In this document: one piece after another, positions 47,943 to 55,722 of the stretch
Position numbering within the stretch: position 1 is the first letter of the stretch
How the letters are laid out: each line of letters opens with the position of its first letter
NCBI RefSeq assembly: GCF_000013365.1
Contig: NC_007778.1
Coordinates: forward strand, 4,650,001 to 4,714,000
DNA: 64,000 nucleotides
Direction: 5' to 3'
Source of the DNA: Rhodopseudomonas palustris HaA2
GTDB lineage: Bacteria; Pseudomonadota; Alphaproteobacteria; Rhizobiales; Xanthobacteraceae
Program-made: the position numbers and the translations under genes
Notes under the pieces: generated by a model
Database searches by the model: none
What the model saw: the letters and a program-made list of their open reading frames with translations, nothing else
Told to the model about the DNA's origin: nothing

Positions 47943-48102
47943 CTCCGCCGAAACAGGCCGTCGTTCCGAGCGACCGCCGAACGCGGCTGCGCCGAGACCA
48001 TCGCTTACGACCAAAAGCTGAATGCATCACTAATGGTTTACGCTCTCGCGCACGAGCGCGCGGCGGAGCCGCGCCGCGCGCCGTTGTCGTGCTGCGGCGG
48101 CG

Positions 48103-49140
48103 TCACGCGGCGCGGTCGAATTCCACGCGCGCGGTGGTGCCCGGCCCGACCTCGTAGACGATGCTGCCGCCGAGCTGGGTGGCGAGGCTGTGGACGATCT
48201 TCAGGCCGAGACTCTTGCTCTGCTCGGGATTGGGGTTCGCCGCCATCCCTTTGCCGTCATCCGCGATGGTGAAGACGATGTGGTCGCCGTGCTGCACGAG
48301 ACGCAGCGCGATGCTGCCGCGACCGTCGGGGAAGGCGTGTTTCAGCGCGTTGGTGATCACCTCGACCGCGATCAGCGACAGCGGTGTCAATTGGTCGAGA
48401 TCGAACTGCACCGGCGGCATGTCGATGCTGAAGCGAACGTCTTTGGCGCCGGCGGCCTCGGCGAGGTTGGCGCACAGCTCCTGGAAGAACTCCCCGACCG
48501 GGCGGGTGACGTTGACCGGATCGTAGAGATGGCGATGCAGCCGCGACATGGTGTCGAGGCGGACGCGGGCGTCGTCGAGCGCGGTCAGCATCGCGGCGGG
48601 ATCCTGGCCGGCGCGCTTAGCGTACAGCCGCAGCATCGCCGAGACGAACTGCATGTTGTTGGCGACGCGGTGCTGCAGCTCCTGGAACATCGTGCGCTGC
48701 CGCTCGTACAGCCGCGCGGTCTCCTCGGCGTCGGCGCGCAGCCTTGCGGCGGCCAGATGCATGATGTGGATCAGCGCGATGTCGACCGCGACGATGAAGA
48801 CGTAGAACACCAGCGCGATCGCGGTCTGCGACGTCAGCTCGAACGTGTAGAACGGCGGCATGAAGAAGTACCATGACGCCAGGCCGCTCAGCACCGCGCA
48901 GACGATGCCGGGGCGCAGCCCGAAGAAGAACGCAGTCAGCACCACCGCGGGGAAGAAGGTGAGATAGGGGAACCCGGCCGGCAGCGCCGCATCGAAGGCG
49001 AAGCGCAGCGCCAGCGCCGCCGCGGCCGCGCCGACGCCGACGAGGTCGCCGATCCAGCCCAGCGACCGCAGCCGCCGTGTGGCGTGGATGATGTCCCAGA
49101 CTTTCAAGCGATGCAGTGCGGGCTCCGCGGGGTTCGGCAC
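48103..49140 (-). CDS. HWE/HisKA_2 sensor histidine kinase with DUF4118 membrane domain
   Basis: 345 residues. Several membrane segments of DUF4118 type (about residues 28-125: FPYLTFFPAVVLTAFFFGL and neighbours) precede a coiled linker. The phosphoacceptor His lies in FQELQHRVANNMQF, the form found in HisKA_2 kinases, followed by HATPase with EVITNALKHAFPDG and GKGMAANP and a GLKIVHSLATQLGG lid. Such kinases often signal to single-domain receivers or the general stress response. No partner regulator is adjacent. Confidence 0.87.
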   Translation of the reverse strand: MPNPAEPALHRLKVWDIIHATRRLRSLGWIGDLVGVGAAAAALALRFAFDAALPAGFPYLTFFPAVVLTAFFFGLRPGIVCAVLSGLASWYFFMPPFYTFELTSQTAIALVFYVFIVAVDIALIHIMHLAAARLRADAEETARLYERQRTMFQELQHRVANNMQFVSAMLRLYAKRAGQDPAAMLTALDDARVRLDTMSRLHRHLYDPVNVTRPVGEFFQELCANLAEAAGAKDVRFSIDMPPVQFDLDQLTPLSLIAVEVITNALKHAFPDGRGSIALRLVQHGDHIVFTIADDGKGMAANPNPEQSKSLGLKIVHSLATQLGGSIVYEVGPGTTARVEFDRAA

Positions 49141-49997
49141 GATGAGCCGATGTTATGACGGAAGCGGCGGCAAAAGGACAGACGGGGAGCGGCCGCCGCG
49201 CCCGCTTGCGGCCATTCGGCGCGCGCGCCGACGCGGACATGCGGCATCGCCCCTGTTGTTTGGACGGCGCGGGGGCGCCGGTGGTCTTTATGCGAATGGG
49301 CCGCCTGCCCCTTCGCCGCGCCAAAAAACGAGGGCGCGCGGAACGCCGGACGCGCGATGCGTCCGCAGCCTCATGCGCAAGGCAAAAAGCGCATGAGTTA
49401 GTCACCACGAAAGCACCGACACGTCCGGCGTTCCGCACGCGGTGAGGCTTCCGGCTTGCTTCGTGCTCTCCCCGGTGGCGTTGATGCGCCTGGTTCGTCA
49501 CCGTCGGGACTGAGCGGCGCGGACGCGAGCGTCCCCGCCTGTGTTTCCTGCGGCCGGTCGGCGCGCAGGCGCTCCGTCCCTTGACGCCAGCGACGGGCGT
49601 CGGGACCACACGATTTGGGCCGGCGCGCAACGGCGATGCAGATGGGGCGCATCTCCGCCCCGGCCCGCATCGCACAGCGTCGTCGTCATGCGCCTGAAGT
49701 CCGGCGGCTCCATAGACCCCGAGGCCAAGCCCAGCGGACTTGCTGCCCCGCGGCCCCCAACCGCCTTCCTCCGCGCCGACGCTGCCGCGTCCACCGCACC
49801 CCGCCCCGCGACTAGTGACGATCGCGAGCCGCCCCTCGGTATTGGAGCGGGATGGATAGGAATATATGCAGGGATGGGAAGATTGTAAAGTCGCCGTAGG
49901 GCGAGTTGAGCGAAGCAGACTATCTCGCCAAAGATGATAGGGTGCGCAAGCCGTTCACCCGGACGCGACTAGCCAACTACAGTGACCGTCCGATTGA
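49141..49997. other. Intergenic region, no recognised gene
   Basis: 857 bp. Only shadow frames occur. The first 650 bp have normal GC; from about 49850 the composition shifts towards AT, marking the left edge of the island with the Nudix genes. No tRNA, repeat end or terminal inverted repeat is visible at the transition. Confidence 0.5.
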
Positions 49998-50450
49998 TCA
50001 CACGCCAAAATCCGCCTGAGCGGACCTATCACTATTCTGCAAAAAAGCCTCAACCGGAGCAAACAGAGAATGGCCGACCACAGAGCCGAGGGAATCGACA
50101 CTAACCCAGTCAATCTGATCAAGCTTCTTCGGTTCTCGGATTCGCGGCAGACCGCGCTTATATTGAAAACTAATATAGTGAATCTTCAGACCGGAAACAG
50201 GATGAATTCGACATCCGATAATATCGGGCCTCGATACATCGATCCCAGTCTCTTCTTTTAGCTCTCGTTTTGCGGCTGCTCCAGCGCTTTCTCCCGCATC
50301 GATTTTTCCTCCAGGGAAAACCCACCTAGGGCAATTTTCATTTGGGTCCGCTCTGCGGACCATCAATACAGAAGTGTTTCCCTCGTGGCGCCTAACAACT
50401 ATCGCCACGGCAACCTCACGTTTTTCGTGAAACGATCCACGTACAGCCAT
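49998..50450 (-). CDS. Nudix hydrolase, partner of the cyclase-Nudix gene
   Basis: 150 residues with a complete Nudix box in the segment GGKIDAGESAGAAAKRELKE, continued by ETGI; every catalytic position of G-x5-E-x7-REUxEExGU is present. Nudix enzymes cleave nucleoside diphosphates linked to other groups. GGAG with 6-base spacing supports the start at 50450. The upstream cyclase-Nudix gene ends only 76 bp before, on the same strand, so the two are probably cotranscribed. Both are in low-GC DNA unlike their surroundings. Confidence 0.82.
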   Translation of the reverse strand: MAVRGSFHEKREVAVAIVVRRHEGNTSVLMVRRADPNENCPRWVFPGGKIDAGESAGAAAKRELKEETGIDVSRPDIIGCRIHPVSGLKIHYISFQYKRGLPRIREPKKLDQIDWVSVDSLGSVVGHSLFAPVEAFLQNSDRSAQADFGV

Positions 50451-50526
50451 CGTCTTCTCCGACCGAGGCTTTATGGCAGACCCCGGGGGCAGACACAACA
50501 TTAGCTGTGTCATCCTTGGCTCCAAA

Positions 50527-51594
50527 TCAGGCGGAATCAACCCTGAATCCTGCCAGGAATCTAGCAACATCGGGATTTATGGCAGATCCAATCTTGGCTA
50601 ACCCGTCAGAAATTGGCACCCATTGGACATCATCGTTTTCCAACGGATCGCCGTTCACGATTTCGACATCATCCCCAGGCTCCATATGAAAGTAGCTGCA
50701 TTTGAACCCAGTAGTGGGGTGCTTTTCGACGTGAGCGATTTTCGCAATCACGCCACAGGTGATTCCCGCCTCCTCCATTACCTCCTTTTCAATTACTGAA
50801 ACTTCATCTTGATTGGGCCATTTCTTTCCCGAAGGAAACATCCATTCCAATCCTTCGCTTCGATCATTCCTTTTTACCAGCAGAACTTCGCCGCGATGCA
50901 CGACAACTCCTATGACAACTGCATACGATCTGATCTGGTCTCTGCTCACCAATTCTCGGATATCACTATCCCGATCTACCACACCCCCAAGTTCAAGTCG
51001 CACACGCTCCGCCTCCCGTATCTCCTTGAGATCTTGATCGCACAGCGGTGGCTCGGCGGTTCGACGTAACGTTGCTATTTCGATGACTCCGTACTTCTTT
51101 GGGAGTTGAATTTCGCCGACGTGATCAATCGCAAAATATGGCGCGTCATCCCCGCTCATGTGCTGCTTCAGCATACTGGCAGCTTGAGCCGTCATCCATA
51201 TTTTGCCTGGCGGAGTGACTGGCTCGATTCGAGCCGCCGTCACCACACTTCGGCCACAAAATGTGGGACGTTCGGTGAACGGGTCAGACCCCTCCAGATA
51301 CTCCCCATGATGAATTGAAATCCTGATATCAAGTTTTGGCAAATCATGCCGGCGCCAATTGAAACCCTGAAATAGATCCTTCAAATGAAGAGCCGCCTCA
51401 CACACATCTTCTATTTTGTCACAAATTATTACTATTCCATCTCCCCAAGTATTCTTATATTTTATCGGAATCTCTTGTAGCCTACGCGCGATATTACTTA
51501 GCACAACTTCGACAAATACCTTCATTTGCGTATCTTTGAGAGCGCTATAACCCTTAACGTCTGCGAAAAGAATATTTGCGGTGCGCCACTGCAT
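50527..51594 (-). CDS. Class III nucleotide cyclase domain fused to a Nudix domain
   Basis: 355 residues. The N-terminal ~190 residues are a class III cyclase domain: metal-binding Asp12 (LFADVKGYS) and Asp52 (NTWGDGIVI), then CGRSVVTAARIEPVTPPG, where the usual catalytic Asn is replaced by Val although the Arg is kept. A helical linker joins a Nudix domain (about 225-350) with box GKKWPNQDEVSVIEKEVMEE; its Glu at box position 7 is Gln, and Arg at 15 is Lys, but EExG is intact. No membrane segment is seen. The fusion could make and recycle a nucleotide signal. GGGGTG precedes the start. Confidence 0.8.
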   Translation of the reverse strand: MQWRTANILFADVKGYSALKDTQMKVFVEVVLSNIARRLQEIPIKYKNTWGDGIVIICDKIEDVCEAALHLKDLFQGFNWRRHDLPKLDIRISIHHGEYLEGSDPFTERPTFCGRSVVTAARIEPVTPPGKIWMTAQAASMLKQHMSGDDAPYFAIDHVGEIQLPKKYGVIEIATLRRTAEPPLCDQDLKEIREAERVRLELGGVVDRDSDIRELVSRDQIRSYAVVIGVVVHRGEVLLVKRNDRSEGLEWMFPSGKKWPNQDEVSVIEKEVMEEAGITCGVIAKIAHVEKHPTTGFKCSYFHMEPGDDVEIVNGDPLENDDVQWVPISDGLAKIGSAINPDVARFLAGFRVDSA

Positions 51595-51696
51595 GAATCA
51601 CCCCCCAACTACAATCACTAATTGTGATTGCGCACTCGGGAAGGTCAAGCCGTTAAAAGGTCAATTTTGGCCGGGCAGCGTTGACACTAGCAGAGC

Positions 51697-51776
51697 CCGT
51701 AGGGCAGATGAGCCGAAGGCGTAATCCGCCGCGATCGGAATGTTGGGTTACGGCTTCGCCTAACCCACCTTACGGC
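51697..51776. repeat. Palindromic repeat family C, copy 1
   Basis: Starts CCGTAGGGC and ends TTACGG, with TGGGTTACGGCTTCGCCTAA in the middle. A second copy is at 52376-52453 with only a few differences. Confidence 0.75.
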
Positions 51777-51835
51777 CCTGAACATTCTGCGGAAAAGCGC
51801 CGTTCCCGGTCTCCTCTCAGCCCGGGGCTGATAGG

Positions 51836-51991
51836 TTAGAACCCAAAGTCCAACTGATCTTTCGATTTGCGAAGACTGAGAGTTAGGCGGTTTGAGCGGC
51901 GGCCAGATGACACCGATTGCCGCTTACCGGCTCGCCAACGCGAGTACGAACGAAAGAATACGTCTTTGGGTCCGTTGCCGTGCTTTCGCAT
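51836..51991 (-). CDS. Possible small basic protein
   Basis: 51 residues: MRKHGNGPKDVFFRSYSRWR at the start and RLTLSLRKSKDQLDFGF at the end. Very basic and without membrane segments. The frame extends further upstream to 52048. The pattern recalls small basic proteins that I have seen in related genomes, but I cannot name a family and there is no strong ribosome site. Confidence 0.35.
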   Translation of the reverse strand: MRKHGNGPKDVFFRSYSRWRAGKRQSVSSGRRSNRLTLSLRKSKDQLDFGF

Positions 51992-52199
51992 GACCAACGA
52001 CTCCTCTTTGACGGGCAGCGAACACCTGCCCGGCTTGGAAACGCACAAGCCCGCGCATTCAAAGTGAAGCGACCGGGAACGGTACTGAGAATGCTACCCT
52101 GATTCGACGAACAGACAATCCGGGTGCTCGCCGAGATCTCTCCCGGATTTTGTGGCGTTCATCCGGATCACAGACTGCTACTCCTGGAGGTGACGCAAG

Positions 52200-52269
52200 C
52201 GTAGCCCGCATGAGCGCAGCGATATGCGGGGGCGTGGTCCCGGATGTCGCTTCGCTCATCCGGGCTACG
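52200..52269. repeat. Palindromic repeat family B, copy 1
   Basis: CGTAGCCCGCATGAGCGCAG at the left and TCGCTCATCCGGGCTACG at the right. The ends form an inverted repeat. Related copies are at 52670-52702 (right half) and 52934-53000. Confidence 0.8.
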
Positions 52270-52375
52270 GGCTGCGACCAGCGCTGTTTTGCAGGTCGCG
52301 AAACGCAAAAGCGGCGGGCCTTGGCCCGCCGCTTTTGGATGGATGGCCGGGTCGAGCCCGGCCATGACAGTCAGC

Positions 52376-52453
52376 CCGTAGGGCGGATCACCGAAGGCGT
52401 CATCTGCCGCGATCGAAGTGGTGGGTTACGGCTGCGCCTAACCCACCCTACGG
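52376..52453. repeat. Palindromic repeat family C, copy 2
   Basis: Same ends and core as the copy at 51697-51776, with small differences (for example TGCGCC in place of TTCGCC). Confidence 0.75.
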
Positions 52454-52669
52454 TTCTCCGCCGAATAGCAACGACCCTGGATTTGGCGCTGCCTCCTCAT
52501 CCCGAGCAGTCCGGCGAAGCCCGCAGGGCGGAGCCGGGGCGTCTCGAAGGGTGAGGCCACGGGGGGCTGCGGCGCATGGTTCGAGACGGCGCTGCGCGCC
52601 TCCTCACCATGAGGCGGTCTGGGTCGTGAGATCTCCGGATCACCAAGGCTGATGGCATCAGCAAGCGCA

Positions 52670-52702
52670 GCCCCGGATGTCGCTTCGCTCATCCGGGCTA
52701 CG
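52670..52702. repeat. Palindromic repeat family B, right half
   Basis: Contains CGGATGTCGCTTCGCTCATC followed by CGGGCTACG, the right arm of family B without the left one. Confidence 0.65.
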
Positions 52703-52867
52703 CACGACGCGCAGCGCCCGTGTCGCCCTCACCCCAACCCTCTCCCGCAAGCGGGAGAGGGAGCGCGCTGCGCTCCGTCTCCCCTCCCCCTTGCGGGGAG
52801 GGAGCCTGCCCCGGACTTGATCCGGGGTCGGGGGTGGGGGTCCGCGGGCACTGCGGATGAACGCTTC

Positions 52868-52920
52868 GCCACCCCACCCCGCTCGCTCCGCGAGCGACCC
52901 TCCCCCTCCAGGGGAGGGTG
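52868..52920. repeat. Palindromic repeat family D, half copy
   Basis: GCCACCCCACCCCGCTCGCT followed by CCGCGAGCGACCC and CCCTCCAGGGGAGGGTG. The same sequence forms the right half of the larger element at 58173-58320. Confidence 0.7.
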
Positions 52921-52933
52921 AGGCTCGCACGAG

Positions 52934-53000
52934 CGTAGCCCGCATGAGCGCAGCGATAGGCGGCGGCGTGATCCCGGATGTCGCTTCGCTCATCCGGGCA
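52934..53000. repeat. Palindromic repeat family B, copy 3
   Basis: CGTAGCCCGCATGAGCGCAG through TCGCTCATCCGGGCA. It is complete on the left, while the right end diverges from TACG. Confidence 0.7.
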
Positions 53001-53034
53001 CCAGGGCTCGAAAGCTTCGACTCGAAGCCGCCGC

Positions 53035-53232
53035 TCAAAACGCCTTGGGCAGCCCGGCCTGGCGCAGGATGGCATTCGCGGTGTGACGGCTCGGGATGCC
53101 GATCGGCACGGCGAAATTGCGACCGGTGATGGGGCTGTGCCAGATCTCGTGGCTTCCCTTGCCTTGCCGGACCATCGCGCAGCCGGCGGCGCGCAGCAGC
53201 TCTCTCAGTTCGCGGTCGAACTGCGGCGCCAT
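53035..53232 (-). CDS. hicA: HicA-type mRNA interferase toxin
   Basis: 65 residues. AGCAMVRQGKGSHEIWHSP contains the catalytic His region (GSHEIW) of the HicA double-stranded-RNA-binding fold, followed by VPIGIPSRHTANAILRQAGL. It starts one base inside the stop of the antitoxin gene (TGATG overlap). The toxin cleaves mRNA when the antitoxin is lost; the pair may stabilise this repeat-rich area or respond to stress. Confidence 0.82.
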   Translation of the reverse strand: MAPQFDRELRELLRAAGCAMVRQGKGSHEIWHSPITGRNFAVPIGIPSRHTANAILRQAGLPKAF

Positions 53233-53468
53233 CAGGCCGCCGATAGCGCTTCGCGCAAGGCGGTGATCTGCAAGAACACCGCCGCCGGATCGACGCCGGG
53301 ATGATTATCCGGCAACAGATCCAGCGTCATGGCTTCCATCTTGGCGAGCAATTCGTCGAGCGTCGGTGCATCGGCCGCGGCCGGAATCTCGTCGCAATGC
53401 CCGCTCCACACGCCCGCGTCGGCGTCCCAGATCGCAGACACGGTGAAGATGACCGGTTTCGACATCAT
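53232..53468 (-). CDS. hicB: HicB-like antitoxin (DUF1902 type)
   Basis: 78 residues with the start at 53468 (or the next ATG, 53465). FTVSAIWDADAGVWSGHCDE and PTLDELLAKMEAM are the RNase-H-like fold of HicB-type antitoxins. It lies upstream of hicA and overlaps it by one base, so the order is antitoxin first, unlike the classical hicAB order. No DNA-binding domain is seen at its C-terminus, so autoregulation may differ. Confidence 0.75.
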   Translation of the reverse strand: MMSKPVIFTVSAIWDADAGVWSGHCDEIPAAADAPTLDELLAKMEAMTLDLLPDNHPGVDPAAVFLQITALREALSAA

Positions 53469-53577
53469 CGCCTCGTCTCGCTTGCCGGCGGCAGGCCCGG
53501 ACTCGATCCGGGCATCCATCCTGAAGAGTGATGGATTGCCGGGTCAAGCCCGGCAATGACGACGCTGGTTGATCGTC

Positions 53578-55722
53578 TCAGTTGTCCAAGAAGCTCCGCA
53601 GCTTCCTTGACCGGCTCGGATGCTTCAACTTGCGCAGCGCCTTGGCTTCGATCTGGCGGATGCGTTCGCGGGTGACCGAGAACTGCTGGCCGACTTCTTC
53701 CAGCGTGTGGTCGGTGTTCATGCCGATGCCGAAGCGCATGCGCAGCACGCGTTCTTCGCGCGGGGTGAGCGAGGCGAGCACGCGCGTCGTGGTTTCGCGC
53801 AGGTTCGACTGGATCGCGGCGTCGATCGGCAGCACCGCGTTCTTGTCCTCGATGAAGTCGCCGAGATGGCTGTCCTCTTCGTCACCCACCGGGGTTTCGA
53901 GCGACAGCGGCTCCTTGGCGATCTTGAGGACCTTGCGGACCTTCTCCAGCGGCATGCCGAGCTTCTCGGCGAGCTCTTCCGGGGTCGGCTCGCGGCCGAT
54001 CTCGTTGAGCATCTGCCGCGAGGTGCGCACGATCTTGTTGATCGTCTCGATCATGTGCACCGGAATGCGGATGGTGCGGGCCTGGTCGGCGATCGAACGC
54101 GTGATCGCCTGCCGGATCCACCACGTCGCATAGGTGGAGAATTTGTAGCCGCGGCGATATTCGAATTTGTCGACCGCCTTCATCAGGCCGATATTGCCTT
54201 CCTGAATGAGATCGAGGAACTGCAGGCCGCGGTTGGTGTATTTCTTGGCAATCGAGATCACCAGACGCAGGTTGGCCTCGACCATTTCCTTCTTGGCCTG
54301 GCGGGCTTCGCGCTCGCCCTTCTGCACCGAATGCACGATCTTGCGGAATTCGCCGATCTCGAGCCCGGTGAGCGCGGCCATCGACTGGATTTCCTGGCGC
54401 AGCTCGCGGATCCGGTCCTTCTCGAAATGGACGAAGTTCTTCCAGCCCTTGGCGGAGAGTTTCGAGACGCGGTTGAGCCAGCGCGGATCGAGCTCGGAGC
54501 CCTGATAGTTGCGCAGGAAGTCCTCGCGCGCCACGCCGTGGCTGTCGCCGAGGCGCAGCAGCCGGCCTTCGAACGACACCAGCTTCTTGTTGATGTCGTA
54601 GAGCTGCTCGACCAGTGAGTCGATACGCGCCTGATTGAGCCGCAGCGACTTCACCTCGACGATGATTTCGTCCTTGAGCTTCTTGTATTTGCGCTCCTGC
54701 GAGGGCGACAGCGACGGCCCCTGCGACGCGCTTTCGAGCTGGTTGGCGATGTCCTGCTCTTGCAGCTTGCGCAGCTTCTTGTAGTTGTCGGCGATCTTGT
54801 CGAAGGTCTCGACCACCTTCGGCTTGAGTTCGGCCTCGATGGCGGCGAGCGACATCTGGTTCTCGAACTCGTCGTCGTCCATGTCGCCTTCGGCGGCGCC
54901 TTCACCGCCGCCCTCGCCGGCGGCCGGGGCCGCGGCGGGCGCCGAGCGCTGCTGCGCGGGACGGAACGGCGTCGCCGTCGGCGGCGCGGCGGGCGGCGCG
55001 ACATGCGCGGGCGCTCCGGCGTCGGCCTCGCCTTCGGCGCTGGCTTCCTCGCCGGCGCCCTCGGCCATCGCAGGGTTCATGTTGGCCTTGGCGTCGGGGC
55101 CCGCATAGGTGGCTTCGAGATCGATGATGTCGCGAAGGAAGATCTTGCCTTCGTTGAGCTCGTCGCGCCAGATGATGATCGCCTGGAAGGTCAGCGGGCT
55201 TTCGCAGAGTCCGGCGATCATCGCCTCGCGGCCGGCCTCGATCCGCTTGGCGATGGCGATTTCGCCCTCGCGCGACAGCAGCTCGACGGTGCCCATCTCG
55301 CGCAGATACATCCGGACGGGATCGTCGGTGCGCTCGCCGGGCTCGGACTTCTTGGTCTCGGTGACGGCCTTCTGGGTGACCTCGACGAGGTCGTTATCGG
55401 GCTCTTCCTCGGCCTCGTCCTTGGCGTCCTCGTCCTCGCTGTCGCTCTCTTCCGCCTCGGACACGTTGATGCCCATGTCGGAGAGCATCGACATGATGTC
55501 CTCGATCTGCTCCGGCGACGTGGTGTCGGACGGCAGCACTTCGTTGAGCTGATCGAAGGTCACGAAGCCGCGCTTCTTGGCCTGCTTGATCATCTTCTTG
55601 ACGGCCGCGTCCGACAGGTCGAGCAACGGCGAGGGAGCGTCGGCGGAGTCCTTCTCCGGCGCGTCGGCCTTGTCGTCCTTTTCCTTGTCTTTCAACTGAA
55701 CCGTCTTCGCCTTGCTGGCCAT
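53578..55722 (-). CDS. rpoD: RNA polymerase primary sigma factor RpoD
   Basis: 714-residue sigma-70. Region 1.1 is acidic at the start, region 1.2 includes [20 protein letters not shown], and a Pro/Ala-rich insert follows near residues 235-270. Regions 2.3-2.4 contain [20 protein letters not shown], and region 4.2 ends with [20 protein letters not shown]. All sigma regions are intact, so it is the housekeeping factor. dnaG lies upstream in the same direction, 268 bp away, as in the macromolecular synthesis operon of other bacteria (without rpsU here). Confidence 0.96.

Follow-up and report, generated by a model that had tools for sequence, protein, structure and literature searches.

A cyclase-Nudix fusion gene and its intact Nudix neighbor in Rhodopseudomonas palustris HaA2: a candidate mobile nucleotide-sensing module

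Introduction

The described systems closest to the locus reported here are Pycsar, CBASS with Cap16, the NrtR-type Nudix regulators, and a lineage of cyclases linked to TPR-S, RyR, and TIR. In Pycsar, a class III cyclase with two metal-binding Asp residues (PycC; accessible portion of PMC11224242) is accompanied by a receptor-effector gene, PycTIR or PycTM. In CBASS, the TM effector Cap16 carries a NUDIX domain, and mutation of that domain leaves the effector's toxicity in place according to the excerpted text of PMC10419184. NrtR-type proteins are DNA-binding regulators whose Nudix domains sense ADP-ribose (PMC9503650, in the sections available).

We analyzed a 64,000-nucleotide stretch of the R. 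palustris HaA2 genome, which consists of one contig of 5,331,656 bases; the whole stretch is called the window below. It contains a two-gene cassette composed of a cyclase-Nudix fusion gene and a gene for an intact Nudix hydrolase. Like Pycsar, the cassette has a class III cyclase with the two metal Asp residues and a mobile setting. Unlike Pycsar, it has no receptor-effector gene (PycTIR or PycTM) among the two window and 10 Rhizobium genes scanned, and its Nudix parts are extra. The PADLOC model for PycC, a general one that matches 178 of 249 genomes, scored the fusion at E 0.036, which leaves membership in PycC unsupported. A 56-row tree separates 51 rows, the cyclase domain among them, from five canonical class III cyclases with support of 100/96, and these 51 rows are the lineage linked to TPR-S, RyR, and TIR. 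The fusion differs from that lineage in having neither TPR-S nor RyR by Pfam, and no TIR or cNMP-binding gene was found among the cassette and its scanned neighbors.

The resemblance to CBASS lies in the Nudix domain of Cap16 joined to an output domain (PMC10419184, as excerpted), an arrangement also seen in a TM-Nudix protein from a cousin locus described below. PADLOC, however, yields only its general Nudix model, PDC-S07, no CD-NTase is encoded among the genes scanned, and the partner here is an intact Nudix enzyme. With the NrtR-type sensors (PMC9503650, same sections) the cassette would share a Nudix domain serving as nucleotide sensor, while its output would be a cyclase, and in the cousin a membrane helix, rather than DNA binding. 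The preliminary description of this locus knew of no system with such an architecture. Our search of the open-access literature agrees, as no description of a cyclase-Nudix pair was found in it, including the accessible parts of PMC9503650, PMC11224242, PMC7159879, PMC8195603, and PMC10419184; an earlier mention is possible. Judged from its sequence, the cassette probably belongs among the nucleotide-signaling conflict systems. It can be assigned neither to Pycsar, since no receptor-effector was found, nor to CBASS, since no CD-NTase was found.

Results

The preliminary description had placed here a gene combining a cyclase and a Nudix domain, with a second Nudix gene 76 nt further on. Both ORFs were recovered at that place with these domains by Pfam (Table 1). 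For the second gene the longest ORF is 50570..49998(-). Its likely start is the ATG at 50450, 76 nt past the fusion stop, and this 150-aa start is favored because the Rhizobium homologue begins there. The claim of an AT-rich island also held. The GC content of the cassette is 0.493, below the minimum of 0.591 found in 591 other 1597-nt stretches of the 64-kb window (mean 0.659, sd 0.023).

Table 1. Positions of the features discussed; coordinates are those of the window unless the L148 locus is named.
Feature	Position	Strand	Evidence or remark
Cyclase-Nudix fusion gene, 355 aa	50527..51594	(-)	ORF and Pfam; full-length Rhizobium beringeri plasmid homologue
Class III nucleotide cyclase domain, residues 6-165	51100..51579	(-)	Pfam Guanylate_cyc E 6e-10; 25-row alignment
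Degraded Nudix domain of the fusion, residues 225-331	50602..50922	(-)	Pfam NUDIX E 8.4e-9
Stand-alone intact Nudix hydrolase, 150 aa	49998..50450	(-)	Pfam NUDIX E 3e-22
Variable insertion site, lower GC	49890..52370	.	Other cargo there in sister species
Conserved block, left border of the site	49233..49890	.	blastn and junctions; 7/12 same-genus loci
Membrane helix and degraded Nudix gene, overlapping intact Nudix gene	L148 6067-7090		Low-GC island

Just upstream of the fusion start codon (51594), a perfect palindrome, CAATCAC-TAATT-GTGATTG, was spotted by eye at window 51612-51630; the surrounding stretch includes a promoter-like match. It is a possible operator; a chance origin is conceivable. 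An imperfect 14-nt direct repeat (12/14) flanks the cassette outside both ends, at window 49973-49986 and 51605-51618. No equally good match to this repeat was found among 12 sister loci, and it may be a product of chance.

The alignment places the two metal-binding Asp residues of the cyclase domain at D12 and D52 and the transition-state Arg at R122, while the position of the transition-state Asn is occupied by Val118. The domain thus has the profile, both Asp residues, and the Arg of a class III cyclase and lacks the Asn. A profile of 25 such cyclase domains matched 66 distinct PDB sequences, and among the 60 matches listed the names are mostly adenylate or guanylate cyclases. The preliminary description had reported both Asp residues and the Val correctly but not that most relatives of the cyclase also lack the Asn. 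Across the 25 aligned rows, both cassettes included, the position is T in nine, V in five, S in five, N in four, and A and M in one each. With Asn in only four of the 25, the Val is not a private loss.

The substitution bears on whether the cyclase is dead, its domain only binding nucleotide or dimerizing so that the module would be a nucleotide-binding switch. Such a role is consistent with the Val at 118 and with the PycC model, which scores the fusion at 0.036 and other loci of the same genome at up to 4.6e-28. Inactive cNMP cyclase domains do occur in conflict proteins (PMC7159879, in the part accessible). We nevertheless consider a dead cyclase unlikely, as both metal Asp residues and the Arg are retained, Asn is also missing from 21 of the 25 rows, and cNMP-binding proteins are encoded near some relatives.

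The two Nudix domains differ in their catalytic boxes. That of the stand-alone protein, GKIDAGESAGAAAKRELKEETGI, is complete and satisfies GX5EX7REUXEEXGU. In the fusion the box, GKKWPNQDEVSVIEKEVMEEAGI, is incomplete, with the Glu of Gx5E replaced by Gln262 and the Arg by Lys270; in the Rhizobium homologue this Glu position is Ala. FPSG replaces FPGG in the fused domain and a KHPTTG motif is present. Since its three core Glu residues (Glu271, Glu274, and Glu275) are retained, the fused Nudix may still be an enzyme. The best NCBIfam matches of the intact Nudix are to housekeeping families, MutT and NudG among them, all below the cut-offs.

To find relatives of the fusion we searched 72,556 plasmid records by tblastn. 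Five records matched at E 1e-5 or better, one of them over the full length: Rhizobium beringeri pRlX2 encodes a homologue with 56.2% identity over 99%. A Nudix hydrolase gene lies 88 nt after it, in the same order as in the window. This gene ranks first among the 52 plasmid records matched by the second Nudix of the window (E 2e-27), the next lowest E among the 25 matches listed being 1e-17, and its product is about 42-44.6% identical to the window protein. At codon positions one, two, and three the fusion genes of the two loci diverge by 0.334/0.266/0.703 and the second Nudix genes by 0.472/0.361/0.667, a pattern that suggests selection on both proteins. The cassette is chromosomal in the window but plasmid-borne in Rhizobium, where an HsdM-type type I methyltransferase (1.3e-186) lies on one side of the pair and a GajB C-terminal fragment of 163 aa (PADLOC 1.7e-31) on the other.

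The gene pair is real and present in two loci. According to the preliminary description, homologues scattered without common neighbors would speak against a module; the second Nudix gene is kept beside both full-length fusions known. No further full-length fusion was found beyond the R. palustris genome in overlapping sets of 150, 397, 394, 398, and 148 genomes, nor was one found in phages, in viral contigs, or in two scans of genome contigs, one of which gave six cyclase-only relatives. The viral-contig and genome-contig scans are based on short exact peptides and would miss most relatives that are not close. When the degraded Nudix domains were used to search plasmids and phages, no other cyclase or TM fusion was recognized. 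Stand-alone Nudix relatives in six plasmid records had no signaling neighbor in common. Pfam detected no cNMP receptor or effector gene in the cassettes, for which the two window genes and 10 Rhizobium genes were scanned.

A related arrangement came from a search with a profile of the fusion across 148 genomes from the genus of G112, a Rhizobium-like genome chosen through a 96% identical insertion element. One of the 148, G1315, has two adjacent Nudix matches, at 1.9e-15 and 4.3e-12. The first protein of this locus (L148) has 200 aa, with a single hydrophobic stretch at residues 37-55 (Kyte-Doolittle 2.2) and a degraded Nudix domain that reads QEVRAE for REUxEE and keeps KHPDTG. The second is an intact Nudix protein of 144 aa, and its gene overlaps the upstream membrane-helix gene by 14 nt. 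The pair has a GC content of 0.519 and its flanks 0.63 and 0.605; from their sequences we take the neighboring genes to be those for threonyl-tRNA synthetase and YidD. An output domain with a degraded Nudix, followed by an intact Nudix, thus recurs with a swapped N-terminus, suggesting that what stays constant is the Nudix pair.

The module evidence comprises these two cyclase-Nudix loci and the one cousin locus. Phylogeny clusters the three degraded Nudix domains weakly (76/16). A single clade of the three intact Nudix proteins, or of all six, is absent from the best tree, though not rejected (p-AU 0.36 and 0.43, respectively). L148 is termed a cousin, not an orthologue, because of this weak support for the degraded clade and the absence of the intact clade from the best tree.

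We also compared the cassette domains with the 12 Nudix matches of their own genome, which include the two in the cassette. The fused domain has just one close paralogue there, its neighbor in the cassette (4.2e-9); the next match is 0.005. From the intact gene, another paralogue (3.6e-9) is about as close as the fused domain (1.2e-8), and the kinship is therefore evident only when one starts from the fused domain. When 160 genomes of the order were searched with a profile of the three degraded domains, the adjacent intact gene scored 3.5e-15, and no other genome gave a match better than 7.1e-10. An HPx[TS]G motif after the box is present in both cassette Nudix domains and in none of six distinct boxes listed from the 10 other matches in the genome; it is also found in four of six plasmid relatives compared, all Streptomyces. 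Judging by these profile and motif comparisons, the degraded fused Nudix is kin to the adjacent intact one.

A PADLOC match to PDC-S07 was considered as a sign of defense and rejected. All 10 of the other Nudix proteins compared (five plasmid relatives of the second gene and five from genomes of the order) match this model, at 4.7e-11 to 3.2e-20.

The setting of the cassette was examined in 12 sister loci of the same genus. The left block, ending near 49890, is kept in seven (L048, L049, L050, L051, L053, L058, and L059) and has no match in the other five (L052 and L054-L057). Beyond it the sequence differs among the seven, and a scan of ten ORFs from all but L058 recovered a PD-Lambda-3_B protein (PADLOC 1.1e-81) in L049, an RES protein with an HEPN_RES match below the cut-off (0.0034) in L051, an NO VEIN C-terminal protein in L050, an 841-aa protein matching UvrD-type helicases in L053, and a ParA-type ATPase in L048. 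In L059 the scan recognized nothing known. As the scanned cargoes differ, the site accepts changing cargo. One of the six scanned loci clearly carries cargo from a listed phage-defense candidate, and some of the sister-species cargo is of conflict type.

To the right of the site lies a gene that its sequence suggests is rpoD-like. Low-GC cargo beside the rpoD-like gene was noted at L049 2649-5162, L050 3818-5749, L051 2751-3974, L053 3261-5783, and L059 4579-6100; Pfam has no match for the gene pair in L059 or for the 495-aa partner in L049. REP-like repeats in several copies (window 52198-53018) separate the site from the rpoD-like gene and are also found in sister loci. Rfam gave nothing in 48000-54000 and no tRNA was found at the site.

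Cargo of this kind could also be accessory, the two genes serving ordinary nucleotide-pool sanitation or metabolism with no role in defense. The sub-threshold scores of the intact Nudix with the MutT and NudG families would fit this, as would the ParA-type protein at the same site in one sister species. The pairing, however, is conserved, the N-terminal domain is exchanged, and the neighbors or the site cargo are of defense type, making a purely accessory role improbable.

We next surveyed the lineage to which the cyclase domain belongs. The two cassette cyclases cluster at 100/100 in the 56-row tree. Within the lineage Pfam recognizes RyR with TPR-S (L037) and TPR-S (L005, L062, and L024), and by eye we noted a cyclase with a VOC-like domain (L042) and one with an ATPase-like domain (L009). 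In L062 and L024 an N-terminal cyclase is followed by TPR-S, for which the full Pfam name is Tetratricopeptide Repeats-Sensor; in the fusion the Nudix domain occupies the same place. Two genomes of the order, G125 and G126 (loci L007, L008, L032, and L034-L036), have two and four matches to lineage cyclases, respectively, at 1e-12 or better.

Neighborhoods were sampled at 26 hand-picked lineage loci, six from genome contigs and 20 from genomes. From the 24 with a script-detected cyclase ORF, 89 neighbor ORFs were scanned, 88 within two genes and one (L041:7017-7685) added by hand. Pfam matches among the 89 were 10 TIR_2, seven ThsB_TIR, six TIR, and four cNMP_binding. A local TIR model, built from seven of the 26 loci, found a TIR gene near the cyclase in 11 of 26 lineage loci and in none of 20 control loci, which surround general class III cyclases ranked highest by the PycC model and are not matched by taxon. 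With a local cNMP-binding model, built from two of the loci, the counts were seven of 26, several of them weak, and one of the same 20 controls. The TIR model was negative in 15 lineage loci, among which L081 is positive by Pfam. No Nudix gene was found near the lineage cyclases in the 26 loci by a local model.

Among the plasmid relatives, L024 has a gene annotated as a Pycsar effector three genes away, L043 is near TIR and DUF4231 genes, and L044 adjoins a TIR gene. Given its TIR-gene neighborhoods, the lineage looks like the signal makers of TIR-type conflict systems. In L039 (1968-6782) and L041 (7017-12715) a TIR gene, a lineage cyclase, and a cNMP-binding protein stand in a row, with a fusion to a protein kinase in L039, and these rows look like a cyclic-nucleotide signaling system. 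In L086 (7504-8835) FHA, GGDEF-like, and TIR domains are joined in one protein beside a lineage cyclase.

These neighborhoods bring in the main rival to our reading, that the fusion makes a signal which triggers the intact Nudix as a toxic effector, depleting NAD+ or another nucleotide in the place of TIR. TIR genes are found near the cyclase lineage, and in the cassettes, where Pfam found no TIR among the two window and 10 Rhizobium genes, a Nudix gene adjoins the cyclase instead. However, the intact Nudix has only one domain (about 150 aa), Pfam shows no receptor domain in it, and the NCBIfam families it matches best, below cut-offs, are housekeeping ones. We regard an effector role for it as rather unlikely.

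Discussion

Our preferred reading, to which we give a probability of roughly 0.4, is that the cassette is a mobile two-gene nucleotide-sensing module in which the degraded Nudix is the sensor, the cyclase or membrane helix the output, and the intact Nudix the eraser, with phage defense as its likely function. The swapped N-terminus, the placement of TPR-S, and the Cap16 and NrtR precedents lead us to assign the parts in this way. We infer the sensing, the ligand, the trigger, the cyclase activity with its product, and the defense role. The fused degraded Nudix would act mainly as a sensor of a phosphoanhydride-containing nucleotide of the NDP-X type, and the intact neighboring Nudix would hydrolyze the same class of ligand, keeping its level low. 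Infection would raise the ligand or block the intact enzyme, and the sensor would then activate the N-terminal output domain. In the window cassette this output would be a cyclase that converts an NTP into a cyclic mononucleotide; the membrane helix would take that role in the cousin pair. The neighborhood and the lineage, both known from sequence, point to the possible defense role.

The preliminary description had proposed instead that the module is self-limiting, the cyclase producing a signal that the Nudix domains then remove, as the presence of a cyclase and Nudix domains within one gene pair might suggest. A 3',5'-cyclic mononucleotide has no link of the NDP-X type. Nudix enzymes cut the central link of NDP-X compounds (PMC9503650, in the available sections), and such a loop is thus very unlikely, leaving competition for the NTP substrate as a possible form of it. 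What stands of that proposal is the mobile two-gene module in a defense-like setting; the making and destroying of a cyclic signal, for which Nudix chemistry seems unsuited, is not supported.

The sensor, output, and eraser arrangement may extend to a more general type, a proposal we hold to be speculative and on balance doubtful: an immune module whose core is a Nudix pair, one degraded reader and one intact eraser, with exchangeable outputs. It would be triggered when infection raises the level of the eraser's substrate, or when the eraser is lost or inhibited, much as a guard on nucleotide-pool enzymes would be. If the module works as proposed, the Nudix fold would join nucleotide-based bacterial immunity in two roles, sensor and eraser, within a single gene pair. 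One sensor would be linked to two types of output, cyclic mononucleotide synthesis and a membrane helix, and a poorly studied, partly TIR-associated cyclase lineage would be tied to a minimal two-gene system.
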